Source of the DNA: Calothrix sp. PCC 7507
Lineage (GTDB): Bacteria; Cyanobacteriota; Cyanobacteriia; Cyanobacteriales; Nostocaceae
Direction of reading: 5' to 3'
Length of the DNA stretch: 64,000 nt
Assembly: GCF_000316575.1 (NCBI RefSeq)
Contig: NC_019682.1
Location: 6,249,501-6,313,500 of the forward strand
The stretch's first letter is position 1; every line of letters starts with the position of its first letter. The translations under genes and the position numbers were made by a program. Positions 56,622-63,987 of this stretch are shown here, piece after piece. The notes under the pieces were generated by a model. The model searched no databases and had not been told where the DNA came from. It saw nothing but the letters and a program-made list of their open reading frames with translations.

Positions 56622-58343
56622 TTATTTTGGTTGCAGTAAGTCCATTGGTACAACAACTGCTCTAGATCCTAGGATACGCGAGAATAGTTGTCCGTTGCGA
56701 TCGTGGAGGTAGAAGTCGGCGGTGGCGCTGGTGGCTTTTTTCTCTTTGATTTCGCAGGAAACATAAAAGGTTTCGTTGCAGGGTGTGGTTCTATACTGTT
56801 CGGATGTGGCCATTTGTCCTGGTAAGCAAACTTCTTGATGAAAATGGCTTAACCAAATCCATAATGGGTGGGTGCTAAGGTCTGTTGAATAGGGGTTATG
56901 CCAATGGATGGGGAATTGTCCTTGTTGTTGGGGTGTGATGTCTTTCCAAAAGCATTCTACTGTAATTTTTTCTGGGCTGATGTTTAAAACTTTTTCAATT
57001 GCTTGGAAGCAGGGGCCGTGAAATAATGAGGATGCGCCGTTCTGGTATAAGTCTTTGCCTGCGGTGGTGATGATGTTGTCTGGGGTGAGATTTACTCTTT
57101 CATAAATTGGGGCTGTGGGTAGTTCTCTTACTAGTTTGACTGTAGAACTGAAGTGATAATGGGTTTTGCCTTGGGGGGTTTTGCTGAGAATTTTGGCTTG
57201 AATTTCGATTGATTCACCATCGTTTTTGGTGAGTTCTTTTAGTTCGAGTATGTGTTCTGTTGCTACGGTTTCGTTGAAGATGATTCCTTTTAAGAATTTA
57301 AATTCCTTGCAACTGAAATATCTATAGCCTGGATAACATTCTTCACAACCGTTAATCATCCATGACATGGCGTTGGTTGCTGGTAATACTGGATATCCAG
57401 CTATCATATGATCTAGTAGAAAGGGGTTATTTTCTACTGTCATGCGCCGCCGAATGCGATAGGTTTTGAGTGTGGAATCTAGGGGCGCTGGTGGTGGTGT
57501 CATGGGGCTACCAATGACAAGTTGGGTAGTGGCGTGATGTTGGGGTTGCAGTTCTTTGACTAGCATTTGTGTGCCAACTTCTACGGGGATGATGTCAATT
57601 CCTCTTTCGGCTAAGGCTTTTTTGAGTTCTGGTGACACCATTCCACTATCCCAAGCGCCCCAGTTGATGGCGACTACGTGACAGTCTGGGTAGTTTTGTT
57701 TGATGAGGTGGGCTGATTTGTTGAGGATTTCGTTGGCGATCGCATAATCTGATTGTCCAATGTTGCCGTAAAATCCTGTTACGGAGGAAAACAACACTAA
57801 GTGCTGGAGTTGTTCGGGGTTAATGCAAGTTAACAGGTTTTCTAGTCCCTGAACTTTGGCGGTGTAAACTTTTTCAAAGTCTTGTTCGGTTTTCTTTTCG
57901 ATTAATTTATCGGCTAGGTTGCCTGCGCCATGTATGATACCTGTGATTCTTCCCACACGGTTGACAACGGCGTTTAGTTTCTGTTGTAAGGCGATTTTAT
58001 CTGTGACATCGACGCTGAGATATTCTGCAGTGCTTCCTGTTTGTTGAATGGCTGCTAAGGTTTTTTTGATTTCTCGGCTGGAGTCAATTTTGTTATAGAT
58101 TTTTTGTACACTCATGGGTGTGGGTTTCTCTCCTTGGGCTAGGAGATTTTCCATGATGCGTTTTTTTAATGGAGCGTCTTCTAAACAATCTTGAGCATAT
58201 TCTGGTTCGGTGGCTAATAGTTCCGAACGACCGAGGAGGATGAATTTACCGGGTTGTTTTTTTGCTAATTTGATGGTGCATTCGGCGGTGATTCCTTTGG
58301 CGCCGCCAGTTATGAGGAATACTGAGGGGGTTTGTGTGGTCAT
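56622..58343 (-). CDS. hglG: Ketoreductase (catalytic half) and dehydratase of the heterocyst glycolipid synthase
   Basis: A 573-residue protein. Residues 1-250 are the catalytic Rossmann subdomain of a polyketide ketoreductase: VFLITGGAKGITAEC at the start, IIHGAGNLADKLIEKK, VLFSSVTGFYGNIGQSDYAIAN and INWGAWDSGMV. The structural half of the ketoreductase is not here but at the C-terminus of the 1735-residue protein upstream. Residues 300-570 contain a hot-dog dehydratase with DHMIAGYPVLPATN (catalytic His) and a second half with GPCFQAIEKV. It removes the beta-hydroxyl after reduction. The symbol hglG is from memory of the Anabaena naming and is less certain than the function. ATG at 58343. 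Confidence 0.85.
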   Translation of the reverse strand: MTTQTPSVFLITGGAKGITAECTIKLAKKQPGKFILLGRSELLATEPEYAQDCLEDAPLKKRIMENLLAQGEKPTPMSVQKIYNKIDSSREIKKTLAAIQQTGSTAEYLSVDVTDKIALQQKLNAVVNRVGRITGIIHGAGNLADKLIEKKTEQDFEKVYTAKVQGLENLLTCINPEQLQHLVLFSSVTGFYGNIGQSDYAIANEILNKSAHLIKQNYPDCHVVAINWGAWDSGMVSPELKKALAERGIDIIPVEVGTQMLVKELQPQHHATTQLVIGSPMTPPPAPLDSTLKTYRIRRRMTVENNPFLLDHMIAGYPVLPATNAMSWMINGCEECYPGYRYFSCKEFKFLKGIIFNETVATEHILELKELTKNDGESIEIQAKILSKTPQGKTHYHFSSTVKLVRELPTAPIYERVNLTPDNIITTAGKDLYQNGASSLFHGPCFQAIEKVLNISPEKITVECFWKDITPQQQGQFPIHWHNPYSTDLSTHPLWIWLSHFHQEVCLPGQMATSEQYRTTPCNETFYVSCEIKEKKATSATADFYLHDRNGQLFSRILGSRAVVVPMDLLQPK

Positions 58344-58443
58344 AATGTTTTAGTTTTTTTTTAAACGCAGAGGGGCGCGGAGTACACGCGGAGGGGCGCG
58401 GAGTTTTGCTGGGTTGATTTGGCTGGGAATTTATGCGATCGTG

Positions 58444-58611
58444 TTCTGAGGTTGGAGTTTGAGGTTCAGAACTCGACATGTGAGGTTTGAAGTGAGAACT
58501 GTCGGGTTCAAAATGAGAACTGTCGAGTTCTGAACGAAAAGCTTCGGGTTCTAAAGGCGAACTGTCGAGTTCAGAACCCGAACTCTCAGGATTAAAACGA
58601 GAACTGTCGGG
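58444..58611. repeat. Eight-unit 21-bp minisatellite between hglE and hglG
   Basis: On the - strand, eight consecutive 21-base units starting CCCGACAGTTCTC or CTCGACAGTTC and ending GAA/AAT cover 168 bases (boundaries every 21 bases from 58611 downwards). Units are degenerate, unit five and six being closest to the consensus. The array can be read in frame as seven-residue units P-D-S-S-H-F-E but no gene start precedes it. Confidence 0.85.
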
Positions 58612-58619
58612 TTTGAAAC

Positions 58620-58727
58620 TATAGCGATTCTTATTTACGTGAGGTACACCCGTAGGGGGCACGGCAATGCCGTGCCCTTACACCCGGCGATATAATTTTG
58701 TGAGGTGTCTGAATGCGAACCACTATA
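58620..58727. mobile_element. MITE copy 2 (108 bp)
   Basis: Reverse-oriented copy of the element at 48063-48169: ends TATAGCGATTC and the inverse TATAGTGGTTC, centre GGGGGCACGGC and GCCGTGCCCTTAC. It lies inside the hgl operon next to the minisatellite. Confidence 0.8.
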
Positions 58728-58779
58728 TTTCTCGCCTCATCCTCCTCATCTCCCTTATCTCTTCACCCCCTTCATTCCT

Positions 58780-61700
58780 TTATTCTGCTGAAGTAGTTAG
58801 AGTAACTCGCCCTTGGGAACCGTAAGCAACCTCGCTAATATAGAGGTTGGAGTCGTGCAATTCAGCAATAATATGTTGTGCTGACTGCTTGGCATCAAGG
58901 GCGGGACTTAAATCAATGGCGCGTGTATATACTTTCGGCCATTCCCATCTCAGGGTTTTGGTTAATCCAAATAAACCGGCACCGATGACTCCATAATTAA
59001 CTTTGTGTTCAAAGCCGAATGCACCATCTAAGCGTGTAACTGTACAGAAACAACTGCGTCCATAATGCGCTGCGTCATTGAGGGATTTTTTCAGGTGTTT
59101 GGCGATGAAGAACACTTGTTTAACGATCGCCTTTTCTGCTTCTATGTAACCAATGGTGTTTTTGACTCTTAATGTTGGGTGAATATGGATGAAGGCGCCT
59201 ATCTTGCCAATGTTACTAGCGATCGCTGATAATTTATGTTGCAGTAATTCTTCGCTCAAGTCGGCTAGGGTGATACGTGTGACTCCCGCTGGTAACTGGG
59301 CTTGTGTTGAGACAACAGATTGCGGGAAGCTTAAAACTACAATTTGCCAACCACGTTCAATTAAGCTTTGCACTACCACCGAGGTGGTGAGGGAACCATC
59401 ATCGGTGATTAAACCAATGTGTCCCTCTGGTAATGTGAAATCTAAATCATCTGGTGGGGGGAGAAATTTGAGTTTGGCTGGACGGCGTTTGACGTTATGC
59501 TCTATATCTATCGGCTCGTCGTCAAACTCAAACTGGGACTTTTTTTTTTCACTTCCAGCAGCTAGCTTCTGGAGATAATCAACTATTTGACCGATTGTCC
59601 TTAAGTCTCCCAGTTCTTCGAGATTCGGTTTGGGTAAGTCAGGATACATTTCTTGCATCGTCCCCAGGATTTCGACTCGCTTGATAGAGTCAATCCCTAA
59701 GTCGGCTTCCATGTCCATTTCCATTTCCAGCATCTCGACTGGGTAGCCTGTCTTTTCACTGGTGATGTTTAACAGGGTTTGTCCTAAGTCTGCGTAATCA
59801 GTAGTTGCAGTTGTTTCTACTTCTGGAGTGAATGCAACGATTTCGTTGACTGGGATTGCTTGAGGAATTGCAACTGGTTCAACTACTGCTGCTACTGGAG
59901 GAATGACGACTGGTTCAACAACAGGCGCAACTTCTACAGCTTGTTGGATTTCTTGAATGGCGATATCAACAGAGACACTGCGGGAAGCGTGAGATTCTAG
60001 ATACTCAACAACTTGTCCAATGGTGCGTTTTTCCGAAAGTTCTTCTAAGTTTGGCTTGGGCAAGTTGGGGTATAACTCTTGTAGTCCTCCCAAAATTTCC
60101 ACCCGTTTGATGGAGTCAATCCCTAAGTCGGCTTCCATATCCATGTCCATTTCTAACATTTCAATGGGGTAGCCTGTTTTTTCACTGGTGATTTCTAACA
60201 GGTGTTTACCCAATTCAGCTAGATTCAAATCACTAGCTACAGGTGCTGGCTGAATTTCCGCAACTTTAGGAATTTCAACTACAGGTGCTGGTGGAATTTC
60301 TGCAACTTTGGGTGTTTCAACTACAGGTACTGGCTGAATTTCTGCAACTTTAGGAATTTCAACTACAGGTGCTGGTGGAATTTCTGCAATTGTGAAAGCA
60401 GGAACTACAGGAGTCTCAACTACAGGCGCAGGCTGGATTTCCCAAACAGGTGCAGCTACAGATGCAGGCTGAATTTCTCCCCTGCTCCCCTGCTCCCCTG
60501 CTTTTTCACCCGAGAGTAACTGAGAATATTGTTGCTGTATGAGTTGGAAAAAGTTTTTGCTGTATTCTACCTGTTCTTGCAGATACTTTTCATGGATGCG
60601 GAGGGTTTCACCTTGTTGGGCGTGAAACTGCATCATGCTACGCTGTAAGCCTTCCATGACTACAGGCTTAATTTCGGTGTTTGCTTTAGAGTTAGCCAGG
60701 ACAGAATTCTGCTGCTCCATCAGTTGAAAGAATGTTTTGGTATATTCAATCTGATGGTTGAGATAAGAACCGTGCAGTTGTAAATTTTCGCTTTGATTTT
60801 GCTGGAACTGTTTGAGCAGATATTCTAAACTTTCGAGAATCTGCTGATAATTTACAGGTTTTTCTGGCATCTTAGATTCCTGGTAAGAGGCTGGGGGAAA
60901 AGATTTCTCTCCCTGTTCCCCTGCTTCTAAGAGGGTGGGGACAACAGAGGTTTTTTTATGTCCATTTCCCTCGATGGCTGGGGTTGTGGGAGTCGCCGCT
61001 GCTAAAGTTGCGAAGTCAGCTGCAATTCCCGCAAACTCTGGTGATGGGGTAGCTGCTAACTTAACTTGATGTCCATTTTGCAAAGCTTGGGCGAAGGCGT
61101 TTTTGGTTTTTTCGGACTTATAGCTAATACCGTTCAATTTCACGGTTAAAGCTTTCTTTTTCTGGTCTTCTGGTGCGGGGGGTGTGGGTGGAATTTGGTA
61201 AGGGTCGAGGTTTTTCAAGTTCATCCCAATTACCCGCAACTGCACTGCAGCTTCTCTCAAAGAGCGATCGCTATTCTTTTGTGTACTGGGGTTCAAAGTT
61301 ACGGTAATATGGGGGCGATCGCCTAATGTATCTTTGACTAAGTTAGAAAGTATCTTCCTCGGTCCAAATTCCACGAAGCATGTCCCACCAGCCGCATAAA
61401 TATTCTCAATCTCCTGTTTAAACAGCACGGAGTTGGAAAGGTGGGTTTCCAGGATTTTTTGAATTGCTGGGGCTTCTTGGGGATATTGCTTCCCGGTGAC
61501 GTTGCTGAAAACCGGAATTTTGGGAGTTTGGAAATTAACAGACTTAGTTGCAATGGCGAAGGATTTTTGAGCAAAAGCAATTAAGGGTGTGTGGAAGGCT
61601 GCAGATACAGGTAGCAACACTGCTGCATATCCTTGGTCATGCAATGCTTGACGCACCTTAGCGATTTCTGCGGTGGGTCCTGCCAAGACAACTTGTGTGG

Positions 61701-63987
61701 GAGAATTAAAATTAGCGATCGCAACTTGGGGATAATGCCGCACTACGGCTTCTACTTTGCTAATTTCTTCTTTCACCGCCAACATGCTTCCCGCATCATG
61801 GTCAGGGTCTTCTGGTGCCGCCATTGCTTGACCCCTAGCTTTGACTAAGAAGAAATAATCTTGGTCACTCAAAACACCCGCAGCCCACAAAGCAGTCAAT
61901 TCCCCAAAGCTGTGTCCTGCCACAAAGTCTGACCTAAACCCAGCTTGTTGCAAAATGGAATACAACCCAGCGCTCAATACGCCAATCGCAGGTTGAGCAT
62001 ATTCTGTGCGTTGCAAAGCCGCAACTTGAGCGTTCTTTTCTGACTCTTCAAATACCGGATTGGGGAAAACAATCTGCGACAACGGCTGCAAATTATCTTT
62101 AAGCAACAAACTATCCATGTAGCCATAAATTCGTCGCAAGGTGGGGAAGTTCATCACCACATCCCGTCCCATTTCCAAGTATTGCGAACCTTGTCCAGAG
62201 AATAGCGCCACAACTTTACCGCCCAGTGCCATCCCAGAGGCGCGATAATAAATCCCTTGGGGATGTTCCCAAGATGCAGCAGACCCTTTGAGTTTCAACC
62301 AGTCCAGGCTAGTTTGCATAAACTTGCAAGCTTCTTGCAGAGTTTCCGCAACAAATCCAACTCTGGCTGCAGCTAAGGGAATTTCTTGGTTTTGGCAATC
62401 CTGAACTAATTGGGCGTAGTGTCTGTCTCCTTCTTTTGACTGCAACTTACCCAAAGTTTCTTCACACTTCATCACCAATTGCGCTGGAGTGTCTGCAAAT
62501 AAGAGTATCTCTGCAGGTGCATTGTGTAAGCGATAAGGACGGTTTTGTTCCGCTTCATGTTCTTCCAAAACCACATGATAATTAGTCCCGCCAAAACCAA
62601 AGGAACTCACACCCGCCCGTCTTGGCGCTTCTCCATCCGCCCGAATCCAAGGTCTAGTTTCGGTGTTCAAATAAAAGGACGAATTTTTAATGTTGAGCTT
62701 GGGGTTTGGCTCGGTAATATTAATTGTGGCTGGCAAGATTTTGTGATGTAACGCCAACGCTGTTTTAATCAAACTCGCCGCACCAGCCGCCGCTTTGGTA
62801 TGTCCAATTTGGGACTTAACGCTACCCAGTGCAATGTGCTGTCTTTTTTGGTCTTCTTCGTTAAAGAAATCTCTTAAAGACCCGAACTCGGTGGGGTCCC
62901 CAGCCATTGTCCCAGTACCGTGTGCTTCCATCAAACCTACGGTAGCGGGAGAAAACCCAGCATCATCATAAGCACGGCGTAAAGCTGATACTTGTCCTTC
63001 TTTGCGGGGCGCATAAATACTCTTATAGCGTCCATCGCTAGAAGTCCCGATACCTTTGATGACTGCATAGATTTTGTCGTTGTCGCGTTCCGCATCTTCT
63101 AAACGCTTCAAGACAATCATCCCAATCCCTTCACCCAACATCATCCCATCAGATTTAGCATCAAAAGGTCTGACATGTTCACTCGGAGAAACCGCCGGGG
63201 TTTTGCTGAAGGAAATGTAAGCCATGATGGTGTTGTCGGTATCCACACCACCAGTTAGCATCATGTCGCTGCGATGTTCGACTAGTTCGCTAATGGCCAT
63301 TTTCAAAGCACCAAAGGAACTAGCACAAGCCGCATCAACAACACAATTCATCCCGCCAAAATTCAAGCGGTTAGCAATGCGTCCCGCGACTACATTCGCT
63401 AACATCCCAGGGAAGGCGTTTTCATCCCATTTGATATAAGCGCTTTTGATTTTCTCCACAATTTTTTGAGTATCTTCATCAGATAAGCCGCTGCTTTTCA
63501 GGGCTTTTTCCCAAATGGGATACTCTAATCTGGCAGAAAGTGGCATTCCTAATTGCTTGGCCATCGCCACGCCTAAGATTACCCCAATAGTTTCGCGGCT
63601 AAATTCACGAGATTCGCCATAGCCTGCGTCTTCCATTGCCTCTTTTGCAACTACTAAACTCAATAGTTGCGATACATCTGTGACTTCTAAAATGCTGGGA
63701 GGAATGCCGAATTCCATCGGGTTAAAATCAACCTCAGGAATGAAACCACCGCGTTTACAGTAGGTTTTATCTTCTGTTGTTCTGGGATTCGGATCGTAGT
63801 AATCTTCTACGCTCCAATGTGTCGAGGGAACATCAGTAATACAATCAATTTTATTAACAATATTGCGCCAATATTCCCGTAAGTTTCTCGCCTGGGGAAA
63901 TAGAGATGCCATACCAATAATGGCTATAGGATTTTGTTGCAGTTTTCTGTTAATCTTGTTAATGGACATTGGTTTTTCTGAATTCAC
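58780..63987 (-). CDS. hglE: Heterocyst glycolipid polyketide synthase: KS-AT-ACP-ACP-KR(structural half)
   Basis: A 1735-residue PfaA-like synthase. KS (14-460): active Cys in VVDAACASSFGAL near 217, EAHGTGTMAGD, SQIGHTKAAAG. AT (about 590-900): SGQGSQYLEMG and VAGHSFGELTALW (Ser near 692). A long linker carries two similar helical stretches (YLNHQIEYTKTFFQL, YLQEQVEYSKNFFQL), then Pro/Val repeats (VVETPKVAEIPPAPVVE). Two tandem carriers have Ser near 1289 and 1432, each in ADLGIDSIKRVEIL. The last 230 residues resemble the non-catalytic half of a ketoreductase and stop there. The start is GTG at 63987 with AGAGG eight bases upstream; ATG at 63969 is the alternative. First gene of the visible operon. 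Confidence 0.93.
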   Translation of the reverse strand: MNSEKPMSINKINRKLQQNPIAIIGMASLFPQARNLREYWRNIVNKIDCITDVPSTHWSVEDYYDPNPRTTEDKTYCKRGGFIPEVDFNPMEFGIPPSILEVTDVSQLLSLVVAKEAMEDAGYGESREFSRETIGVILGVAMAKQLGMPLSARLEYPIWEKALKSSGLSDEDTQKIVEKIKSAYIKWDENAFPGMLANVVAGRIANRLNFGGMNCVVDAACASSFGALKMAISELVEHRSDMMLTGGVDTDNTIMAYISFSKTPAVSPSEHVRPFDAKSDGMMLGEGIGMIVLKRLEDAERDNDKIYAVIKGIGTSSDGRYKSIYAPRKEGQVSALRRAYDDAGFSPATVGLMEAHGTGTMAGDPTEFGSLRDFFNEEDQKRQHIALGSVKSQIGHTKAAAGAASLIKTALALHHKILPATINITEPNPKLNIKNSSFYLNTETRPWIRADGEAPRRAGVSSFGFGGTNYHVVLEEHEAEQNRPYRLHNAPAEILLFADTPAQLVMKCEETLGKLQSKEGDRHYAQLVQDCQNQEIPLAAARVGFVAETLQEACKFMQTSLDWLKLKGSAASWEHPQGIYYRASGMALGGKVVALFSGQGSQYLEMGRDVVMNFPTLRRIYGYMDSLLLKDNLQPLSQIVFPNPVFEESEKNAQVAALQRTEYAQPAIGVLSAGLYSILQQAGFRSDFVAGHSFGELTALWAAGVLSDQDYFFLVKARGQAMAAPEDPDHDAGSMLAVKEEISKVEAVVRHYPQVAIANFNSPTQVVLAGPTAEIAKVRQALHDQGYAAVLLPVSAAFHTPLIAFAQKSFAIATKSVNFQTPKIPVFSNVTGKQYPQEAPAIQKILETHLSNSVLFKQEIENIYAAGGTCFVEFGPRKILSNLVKDTLGDRPHITVTLNPSTQKNSDRSLREAAVQLRVIGMNLKNLDPYQIPPTPPAPEDQKKKALTVKLNGISYKSEKTKNAFAQALQNGHQVKLAATPSPEFAGIAADFATLAAATPTTPAIEGNGHKKTSVVPTLLEAGEQGEKSFPPASYQESKMPEKPVNYQQILESLEYLLKQFQQNQSENLQLHGSYLNHQIEYTKTFFQLMEQQNSVLANSKANTEIKPVVMEGLQRSMMQFHAQQGETLRIHEKYLQEQVEYSKNFFQLIQQQYSQLLSGEKAGEQGSRGEIQPASVAAPVWEIQPAPVVETPVVPAFTIAEIPPAPVVEIPKVAEIQPVPVVETPKVAEIPPAPVVEIPKVAEIQPAPVASDLNLAELGKHLLEITSEKTGYPIEMLEMDMDMEADLGIDSIKRVEILGGLQELYPNLPKPNLEELSEKRTIGQVVEYLESHASRSVSVDIAIQEIQQAVEVAPVVEPVVIPPVAAVVEPVAIPQAIPVNEIVAFTPEVETTATTDYADLGQTLLNITSEKTGYPVEMLEMEMDMEADLGIDSIKRVEILGTMQEMYPDLPKPNLEELGDLRTIGQIVDYLQKLAAGSEKKKSQFEFDDEPIDIEHNVKRRPAKLKFLPPPDDLDFTLPEGHIGLITDDGSLTTSVVVQSLIERGWQIVVLSFPQSVVSTQAQLPAGVTRITLADLSEELLQHKLSAIASNIGKIGAFIHIHPTLRVKNTIGYIEAEKAIVKQVFFIAKHLKKSLNDAAHYGRSCFCTVTRLDGAFGFEHKVNYGVIGAGLFGLTKTLRWEWPKVYTRAIDLSPALDAKQSAQHIIAELHDSNLYISEVAYGSQGRVTLTTSAE

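Follow-up and report, generated by a model that had tools for sequence, protein, structure and literature searches.

A ketoreductase divided between HglE and HglG in Calothrix sp. PCC 7507, and a candidate frameshift site beside its structural half

PfaA-type synthases (profile TIGR02813) and fused paralogues of the HglE2 type carry a ketosynthase (KS), an acyltransferase (AT), acyl carrier protein (ACP) domains, the structural and catalytic halves of a ketoreductase (KR), termed KRs and KRc, and a dehydratase (DH), in the order KS-AT-ACP-KRs-KRc-DH. The hgl island of Calothrix sp. PCC 7507 has the same order and is homologous to them throughout, but the KR, which lies on one chain in PfaA and HglE2, is distributed here over two genes, hglE and hglG. 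Both genes are found in a stretch of 64,000 nucleotides (contig NC_019682.1, positions 6,249,501 to 6,313,500), which we call the window. Breaks in pfaA homologues have been described: a passage of Shulse and Allen 2011 (PMC3098273) reports Type D pfaA as 'split' into the separate genes pfaA1 and pfaA2, and part of a 2026 paper (PMC13291983) describes cyanobacterial hybrid clusters whose pfaA homologues are split around a Rossmann-fold gene of unknown function. Another system close to this locus is dnaX, in which, according to a section of Atkins 2016 (PMC5009743), about half of the ribosomes shift at A_AAA_AAG and stop soon after, and some bacteria have a reversed layout.

We consider it likely that HglE and HglG jointly form one type I KR, and that a slip at a run of ten A's (A10) leaves KRs on part of the HglE chains. 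The features involved, including two open reading frames (ORFs) and domains of the short-chain dehydrogenase/reductase (SDR) type, are as follows.

58780-63987, minus strand: hglE-like ORF, KS-AT-ACP-ACP-KRs, 1735 amino acids from the GTG at 63987 (ORF list, Pfam, TIGR02813, tblastn)
58783-59493, minus strand: KRs, HglE residues 1499-1735, SDR fold without catalytic residues (profile, AF2, structure alignment)
59539-59550, minus strand: putative slippery site GAA AAA AAA AAG, with A10 at 59540-59549 and the in-frame heptamer A_AAA_AAG
59548-59802, minus strand: second ACP of HglE, adjoining the slippery site on its upstream side (tblastn positions)
56622-58343, minus strand: hglG-like ORF, KRc followed by a dehydratase-like domain, 573 amino acids (ORF list, Pfam, TIGR02813, alignment)
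57504-58343, minus strand: KRc, HglG residues 1-280, with the TGGAKGIT cofactor motif and K163, S187, Y200 and N204 (alignment, PDB relatives)

The reading frame of HglE is still open at the end of the window, and its true start may fall outside. With 1741 bits against TIGR02813, whose cut-off is 1010, HglE belongs to the PfaA/HglE family, and HglG alone reaches 420 bits and covers just the end of the profile. The best stretches place HglE 13-1351 on profile positions 1-1306 and HglG 6-558 on 1997-2567; because they are divided over the two proteins, the pair looks like one PfaA-like chain cut in two.

A Pfam scan of the ~237 residues of KRs returned no family at E-values up to 1. A 15-row profile of KRs did match PDB structures of FabG (best E 2.1e-9) and had weaker matches to PksJ ketoreductases (E 4.5e-4 and 0.0045). 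The AF2 model of KRs alone, from a 73-row alignment, has a confidently predicted SDR-like fold (pLDDT 93.9, pTM 0.92) and matches 6ulw, a KR-containing module of a nonribosomal peptide synthetase, with Z 18.9 in VIA-align; many SDRs score about 18, which amounts to ties. The glycine motif and the Tyr/Lys pair present in the matched FabGs are lacking from KRs in the alignments, so that it resembles the structural half of a type I KR in being SDR-like without catalytic residues. There is a single match to KRs in the Calothrix sp. PCC 7507 genome. In a relative, KRs is interrupted at residue 107 at the ends of contigs G002:C28 and G002:C50, perhaps by a repeat or insertion, perhaps by assembly only.

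In HglG, the Pfam KR family PF08659 matches residues 8-232 (E 3.3e-38), with models of polyketide synthase (PKS) dehydratases behind it. K163, S187, Y200 and N204, spaced 24/13/4, and the GG..G.T motif are invariant in a 15-row alignment; the four residues form the catalytic Lys-Ser-Tyr-Asn set. The next match to HglG in the same genome is another ORF with 30% identity (E 2.1e-13). An earlier note on this DNA had KRs closing HglE and KRc opening HglG, which ORF coordinates, Pfam, profiles and the AF2 model bear out. Its description of a KR split between two proteins is correct for the halves, which are on two chains, with a qualification for the active site. The alignments indicate that the domain is divided and the active site undivided, with the NADPH motif and the Lys-Ser-Tyr-Asn set all in HglG.

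To place the cut among relatives, we used a locus set that comprised the window, 57 strong HglG places in 60 relative genomes (the partial match G059:C2 was left out), 3 contig-end KRs places and the best 80 of 554 relatives in named genome contigs. Removal of 10 duplicates with identical KRc DNA left 131 unique loci; the duplicates L137, L147 and L155 remain in the tree and in the analyses of cut points, frame listing, stop null, codon columns, heptamer and hairpin, and distances. The KR is split in 68 unique loci, joined in 56 and incomplete in 7, and recurrence of the same cut point in 68 of 131 loci shows that the break is not due to chance. Split loci occur in Cyanobacteria, in Chloroflexota and in one locus of Acidobacteriota. 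In the set, Shewanella, Photobacterium and Streptomyces have PfaA-type loci that are joined, in agreement with the earlier note, which had pointed to PfaA as a relative with both halves on one chain. Some genomes carry a split hgl copy together with a fused paralogue. By its distribution among these sequences, the split is an old family trait and no peculiarity of Calothrix sp. PCC 7507. On a quick FastTree tree (131 rows including the 3 duplicates, with some long branches) there are at least 6 changes between the split and joined states; the outgroup is not on one side of any branch, and the fused HglE2 clade may be re-fused. Within that fused clade, L146 (a metagenome-assembled genome (MAG) of Trichormus sp.) has a split KR with 47 nt from stop to KRc, either a recent split or an assembly error.

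The ends that face each other across the break are short. Of 70 split loci scored at the KRs end, 69 have 2-9 residues past the last KRs strand and one has 18; at the KRc end, all 70 scored loci have 6-12 residues between the nearest ATG and the KRc motif. In joined loci the linker between KRs and KRc has 18-25 residues in 22 of the 28 that can be scored, with outliers of 4, 36, 37, 47, 56 and 63; it could not be scored in 28 of the 56 joined loci, nor could one split row at each end. The cut point therefore falls inside the linker of one-chain relatives, and the tails, at 2-18 and 6-12 residues, are too short to accommodate docking helices or intein halves. Docking domains at the facing termini of HglE and HglG were rejected on this ground.

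The same lengths bear on the idea that the two parts are rejoined after synthesis by a split intein, or that the gap DNA is excised in heterocysts. Split inteins exist in heterocyst-forming cyanobacteria. Part of PMC4874684 describes excised elements in such organisms. However, the tails are too short for intein halves, and gap lengths and contents vary among relatives. No ORF of at least 70 amino acids is present in the window's gap, and thus no recombinase. Both forms of rejoining were rejected, and we regard them as extremely improbable.

The earlier note held that the two halves must meet in a complex, a view that is partly supported. Several lines of evidence suggest that the halves act together: matching cut points, the lack of docking tails, parallel divergence, purifying selection, and the single KRs match in the genome. 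Median ratios of nonsynonymous to synonymous substitution rates (dN/dS) for KRs are 0.169 in 203 split pairs and 0.209 in 32 fused pairs, which points to purifying selection of similar degree in both kinds of gene; medians in the split set are 0.061 for KS, 0.124 for KRc and 0.225 for DH. Loss of KRs function was rejected on its dN/dS of ~0.17. Across 68 split rows, distances in KRs correlate with those in KRc (r 0.924; partial 0.889 on KS and 0.674 on DH), compared with r 0.546 between KRs and KS of its own chain. As a proxy for the KRs-KRc complex, we folded the one-chain relative L148 (Fortiea). Its KR is predicted to fold as a single unit (pTM 0.92, with lower confidence at linker residues 231-250), and residues 1-525 align with the solved type I KR 5d2e at Z 35.6 (431 aligned, rmsd 3.0). 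With this relative as stand-in, it is likely that KRs and KRc would reassemble through the native interface.

Some observations weigh against such a pairing. The 46 joined loci show similar correlations (KRs-KRc 0.859, KRs-KS 0.453), and so the distances fit a working pair without singling out the split one; they are also inflated by shared ancestry and neighbourhood. KRc of HglG could instead work alone, for example as a FabG-like homo-oligomer, with KRs a leftover. The catalytic residues and the cofactor motif are all in HglG, KRc has relatives among free-standing SDRs and might be able to function without its partner, and L160, a Chloroflexi MAG contig, carries KRc-DH but no KRs within the 845 nt that precede KRc. 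Yet KRs, with a dN/dS below that of DH although above that of KRc, diverges in step with KRc, and the KRs-less loci other than L160 are contig ends (L011 and L156) or a distant PfaA-like ORF (L116). A self-sufficient KRc is therefore unlikely, in our view.

Two further observations concern these loci. The gene upstream of KRc-DH in L160 looks like a DNA methylase by eye. In the second hgl copies L068 (G016:C73) and L073 (G035:C1), the KS-AT parts have each other and then L146 and L106 as their nearest sequences, while KRs and KRc are closest to those of ordinary hgl copies, as if the front part had been exchanged and the KR pair kept.

On its own, the split amounts to a neat variation on a known domain. 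The adjoining slippery site, which the earlier note had missed, is more surprising. A10 sits between ACP2 and KRs of HglE, and TCC is the codon after GAA AAA AAA AAG, with KRs in the ACP frame. A slip to the -1 frame would add Val-Pro-Val before a stop and yield an HglE of ~1486 amino acids without KRs. The window thus shares two hallmarks of dnaX-type sites, a slippery heptamer in the 0 frame and an early -1 stop.

Both domains are present in 125 unique loci. KRs shares the frame of the ACP in 94 of them and is shifted to -1 in 28 and to +1 in 3. A run of at least 8 A's marks the ACP-KRs border in 54 of 58 in-frame loci that are split or at contig ends (A10 in 51), compared with 6 of 36 in-frame joined loci, and a second run of at least 9 A's elsewhere in the gene is found in 6 of 57 genes. 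In 51 unique genes the codons at the site are GAA (47), AAA (50) and AAA (51), and then AAG in 42 of the 45 cases that encode Lys. AAG makes up 26% of Lys codons in those genes, and the other 47 conserved Lys columns reach a fraction of 0.76 AAG at most. The residue after the lysine run is conserved in 44% of 54 rows. Of 54 in-frame split loci, 44 have a stop no more than 5 codons on in the -1 frame and 13 have one in the +1 frame; the null expectations are 35% and 33%. Upstream, 29 of 54 loci have GGAGG (the 54 rows include 3 duplicates; background 0.6%).

In the 28 loci with KRs in the -1 frame, an in-phase A_AAA_AAR heptamer is invariably found where the two frames overlap (13-184 nt), compared with 0.3% of length-matched random windows. 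No ATG precedes the KRs domain in 26 of them, and 11 have no ATG, GTG or TTG. A fresh set of Bacteroidota provided 26 new scorable loci, of which 25 are in the -1 frame, 22 of these with the heptamer in the overlap. The remaining three are L214 and L218, which have GTG GGA AAG before the stop, read as G_GGA_AAG, and no A run, and L211, whose frame is broken within the ACP. Neither L211 nor L225, which is in the +1 frame, fits the pattern of a -1 slip. Including four loci that were already in the main set, 29 of 30 scored Bacteroidota loci are in the -1 frame; 4 of 34 (L209, L231, L232 and L233) were unscored because no ACP match or no KRs was on the piece, and the match G837 (ORF of 2160 amino acids, 38% identity, perhaps in frame) lies outside the scored set. 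Among the 25 new -1 loci, 20 have no ATG before the KR and 6 have no start codon at all, so that 5 could start the KR from an ATG. A free-standing KRs protein was mostly rejected for out-of-frame loci in view of the 28 heptamers and the 26 loci without ATG; it is possible for L112, L113 and L179 (+1 frame) and for L158 (ATG and GTG starts).

The layout of the window mirrors that of the -1 loci: here KRs belongs to the in-frame product, and slipping to -1 would terminate the chain. Both layouts would give the same two products, namely a KS-AT-ACP chain and a longer chain that continues into KRs (hgl) or KR-DH (Bacteroidota). HglE is probably made both with and without its KR half, as judged from these sequence patterns; in the window itself, the slip and the stoichiometry of the products are what we infer from them.

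Other observations tell against a slip. Conservation of AAA is by itself unremarkable, because 8 of 47 other Lys columns have AAA in at least 95% of cases. There is no signal of a downstream hairpin (median z 0.63 over 54 loci; 7 of 54 below -1.5), and the window has GGAAG rather than GGAGG upstream of A10. KRs lies in the +1 frame in L112, L113 and L179. The in-frame split loci L106, L151, L159 and L162 have no A run, so the KR split does not need one. Differences between A9 and A10 in single genomes could be sequencing errors or replication slips. A10 might be a mere lysine-rich linker, with in-frame genes read through and frame differences due to errors, as would suit the 94 of 125 loci in the ACP frame, the missing hairpin, the error-prone nature of homopolymers and the AAA-rich Lys columns elsewhere in the gene. 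This view has to contend with the in-phase heptamer in 28 of 28 and 22 of 25 -1 loci (with G_GGA_AAG in two of the other three), with the nearly uniform -1 frame of Bacteroidota, and with the preference for AAG as third Lys codon and the nearby -1 stops. We therefore find a plain linker rather improbable.

It is also conceivable that the two forms arise by transcriptional slippage on A9-A10 instead of ribosomal frameshifting. In bacteria, slippage is known at runs of at least 9 A's, those in insertion sequence elements of Nostoc among them, according to a portion of Baranov 2005 (PMC1088944). However, the -1 loci L165, L166, L167 and L182 have just A6-G, the Bacteroidota loci with G_GGA_AAG have no A run, and the nearby stops favour -1 over +1. 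We judge slippage by the polymerase to be about as doubtful as the linker.

In the mechanism that we propose, KRs at the end of HglE would pack non-covalently on KRc at the start of HglG, through an interface like that of one-chain relatives and with no docking domain. KRc, dependent on NADPH, would reduce the beta-keto chain held on the HglE ACPs, and the DH behind it together with other Hgl enzymes would complete the cycle. Probably only part of the HglE chains carry KRs, the others being ended at the ACPs by a dnaX-like -1 slip at the A10 that lies between ACP2 and KRs. The halves, the cut point, conservation, the A10 site and the relatives are all read from sequence, and the folds of KRs and of the joined domain are predicted; the KRs-KRc complex is our inference.

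More broadly, and with somewhat less assurance than for the locus itself, we favour the view that a dnaX-like -1 slip between the ACPs and the KR is a widespread control in megasynthases of HglE/PfaA type, in Cyanobacteria, Bacteroidota, Chloroflexota, Acidobacteriota and Beggiatoa-type and other Proteobacteria. Two KS-AT-ACP forms would then set the number of KR sites per synthase, and in heterocyst glycolipid (hgl) genes, including those of the window, the slip would act on a two-chain KR. Several 'split pfaA' genes in print, and the Rossmann protein, would be parts of this arrangement.

The remaining features of the locus are the following.

59977-60225, minus strand: first ACP of HglE (tblastn positions)
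56625-57488, minus strand: dehydratase-like domain of HglG (PF14765, PF21089; tblastn)
58344-58779, minus strand: intergenic gap, 436 nt (ORF and repeat analysis)
58365-58404 and 58494-58617: tandem repeats in the gap
~58620-58730: dispersed ~110-nt repeat in the gap

The minus strand of the window is an hgl-type lipid synthase cluster in which HglG is followed by a KS, a KS-AT-like protein, a PfaD-type enoyl reductase and an ACP-thioester reductase. When plasmids were searched with this region, only short pieces matched, in 2 records. As the earlier note had stated, 436 bases and repeats separate the genes; the repeats are incidental to the split. The ~110-nt repeat is one of dozens of dispersed copies in the genome (47 matches with the gap as query, counting itself and small reverse matches), and the gap repeats therefore look like later filling. 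One more copy lies inside the window region (G000:C1:6297563). In the 68 split loci the distance from stop to KRc domain is 0-3800 nt (median ~294) and some gaps enclose whole genes, so repeats are unnecessary for the split and were rejected as its cause.

Genes between the KR halves include a conserved ORF of 147-213 amino acids, carboxypeptidase-regulatory-like, in 16 unique loci (L075, L077-L079, L081, L083, L085-L091, L135, L136 and L139). The first 100 residues of the L079 copy match PF13715 (E 1.7e-8), and several copies have a C-terminal membrane helix as judged by eye. A passage of PMC8073705 reports a carboxypeptidase-regulatory-like gene of this kind in strain HT-58-2. A full-length SDR gene of 255-257 amino acids lies between the halves in L095 (same as L142) and L113, with 65% mutual identity. 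In L144 (Moorena bouillonii), the 1569-nt gap holds a 467-amino-acid ORF that appears by eye to be of acyltransferase or condensation type; 120 of its residues were scanned and gave no Pfam family above the cut-off.

Published annotations can be set beside these results. In part of PMC11804610, hglEA of PCC 7120 is annotated with 4626 bp, hence ~1541 residues, nearer the short form in the window (~1486) than the long one (1735). hglF of PCC 7120 may be KRs. The Type D and hybrid-cluster 'split pfaA' genes, compared by description in parts of the papers cited above, are likewise broken either after the ACPs and before the KR or on the two sides of a Rossmann-fold piece. Our data suggest that 'split pfaA' of the Bacteroidota type is a -1 frameshift fusion and that the Rossmann gene of PMC13291983 is KRs. 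Among the matches listed in our literature searches, which cover texts other than supplements and subscription papers, none reports a KR divided between chains, or frameshifting in synthases of polyketides or polyunsaturated fatty acids. A search for terms in the accessible parts of GeneTack (PMC3711429), Baranov 2005 and Atkins 2016 yielded no polyketide or heterocyst gene, apart from a GeneTack row for 'polyketide cyclase', and the word 'frameshift' is absent from the main text of PMC3098273, PMC11804610 and PMC13291983.

The KRs-KRc border is a natural cut point that could be useful for engineering, and knowledge of it helps in reading gene clusters where KRs, which has no Pfam match, goes unrecognised. 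If the slip is real, it would be the first example known to us of recoding in a polyketide-type megasynthase, and carrier-only and KR-bearing chains would come from one gene at a fixed ratio. That ratio may bear on which carbons keep their oxygen in iterative lipid synthases.

Compared with the type I modular KRs MlnE (5d2e), PksJ (5ktk) and EryKR1 (2fr0), the hgl enzyme has the same architecture of KRs plus KRc, and these structures match the one-chain relative at Z 34-36; unlike them, with their single chain (a usual rather than strictly defining property), it has its halves on two. Some type I KRs have an enoyl reductase (ER) domain inserted at the KRs-KRc border, where the hgl genes are cut, and the KR-ER didomain 3slk is among the structure matches of L148. 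Heteromeric SDRs are represented among the fold matches of KRs by human mitochondrial KAR (4cql) and by BbsCD (7pcs). These are heterotetramers in which two kinds of SDR subunit make up one reductase, outside megasynthases. The putative slippery site resembles that of dnaX in its in-frame A_AAA_AAG, its early -1 stop and the existence of a reversed layout, but differs in that it lies in a lipid megasynthase gene and has no hairpin that we could find.

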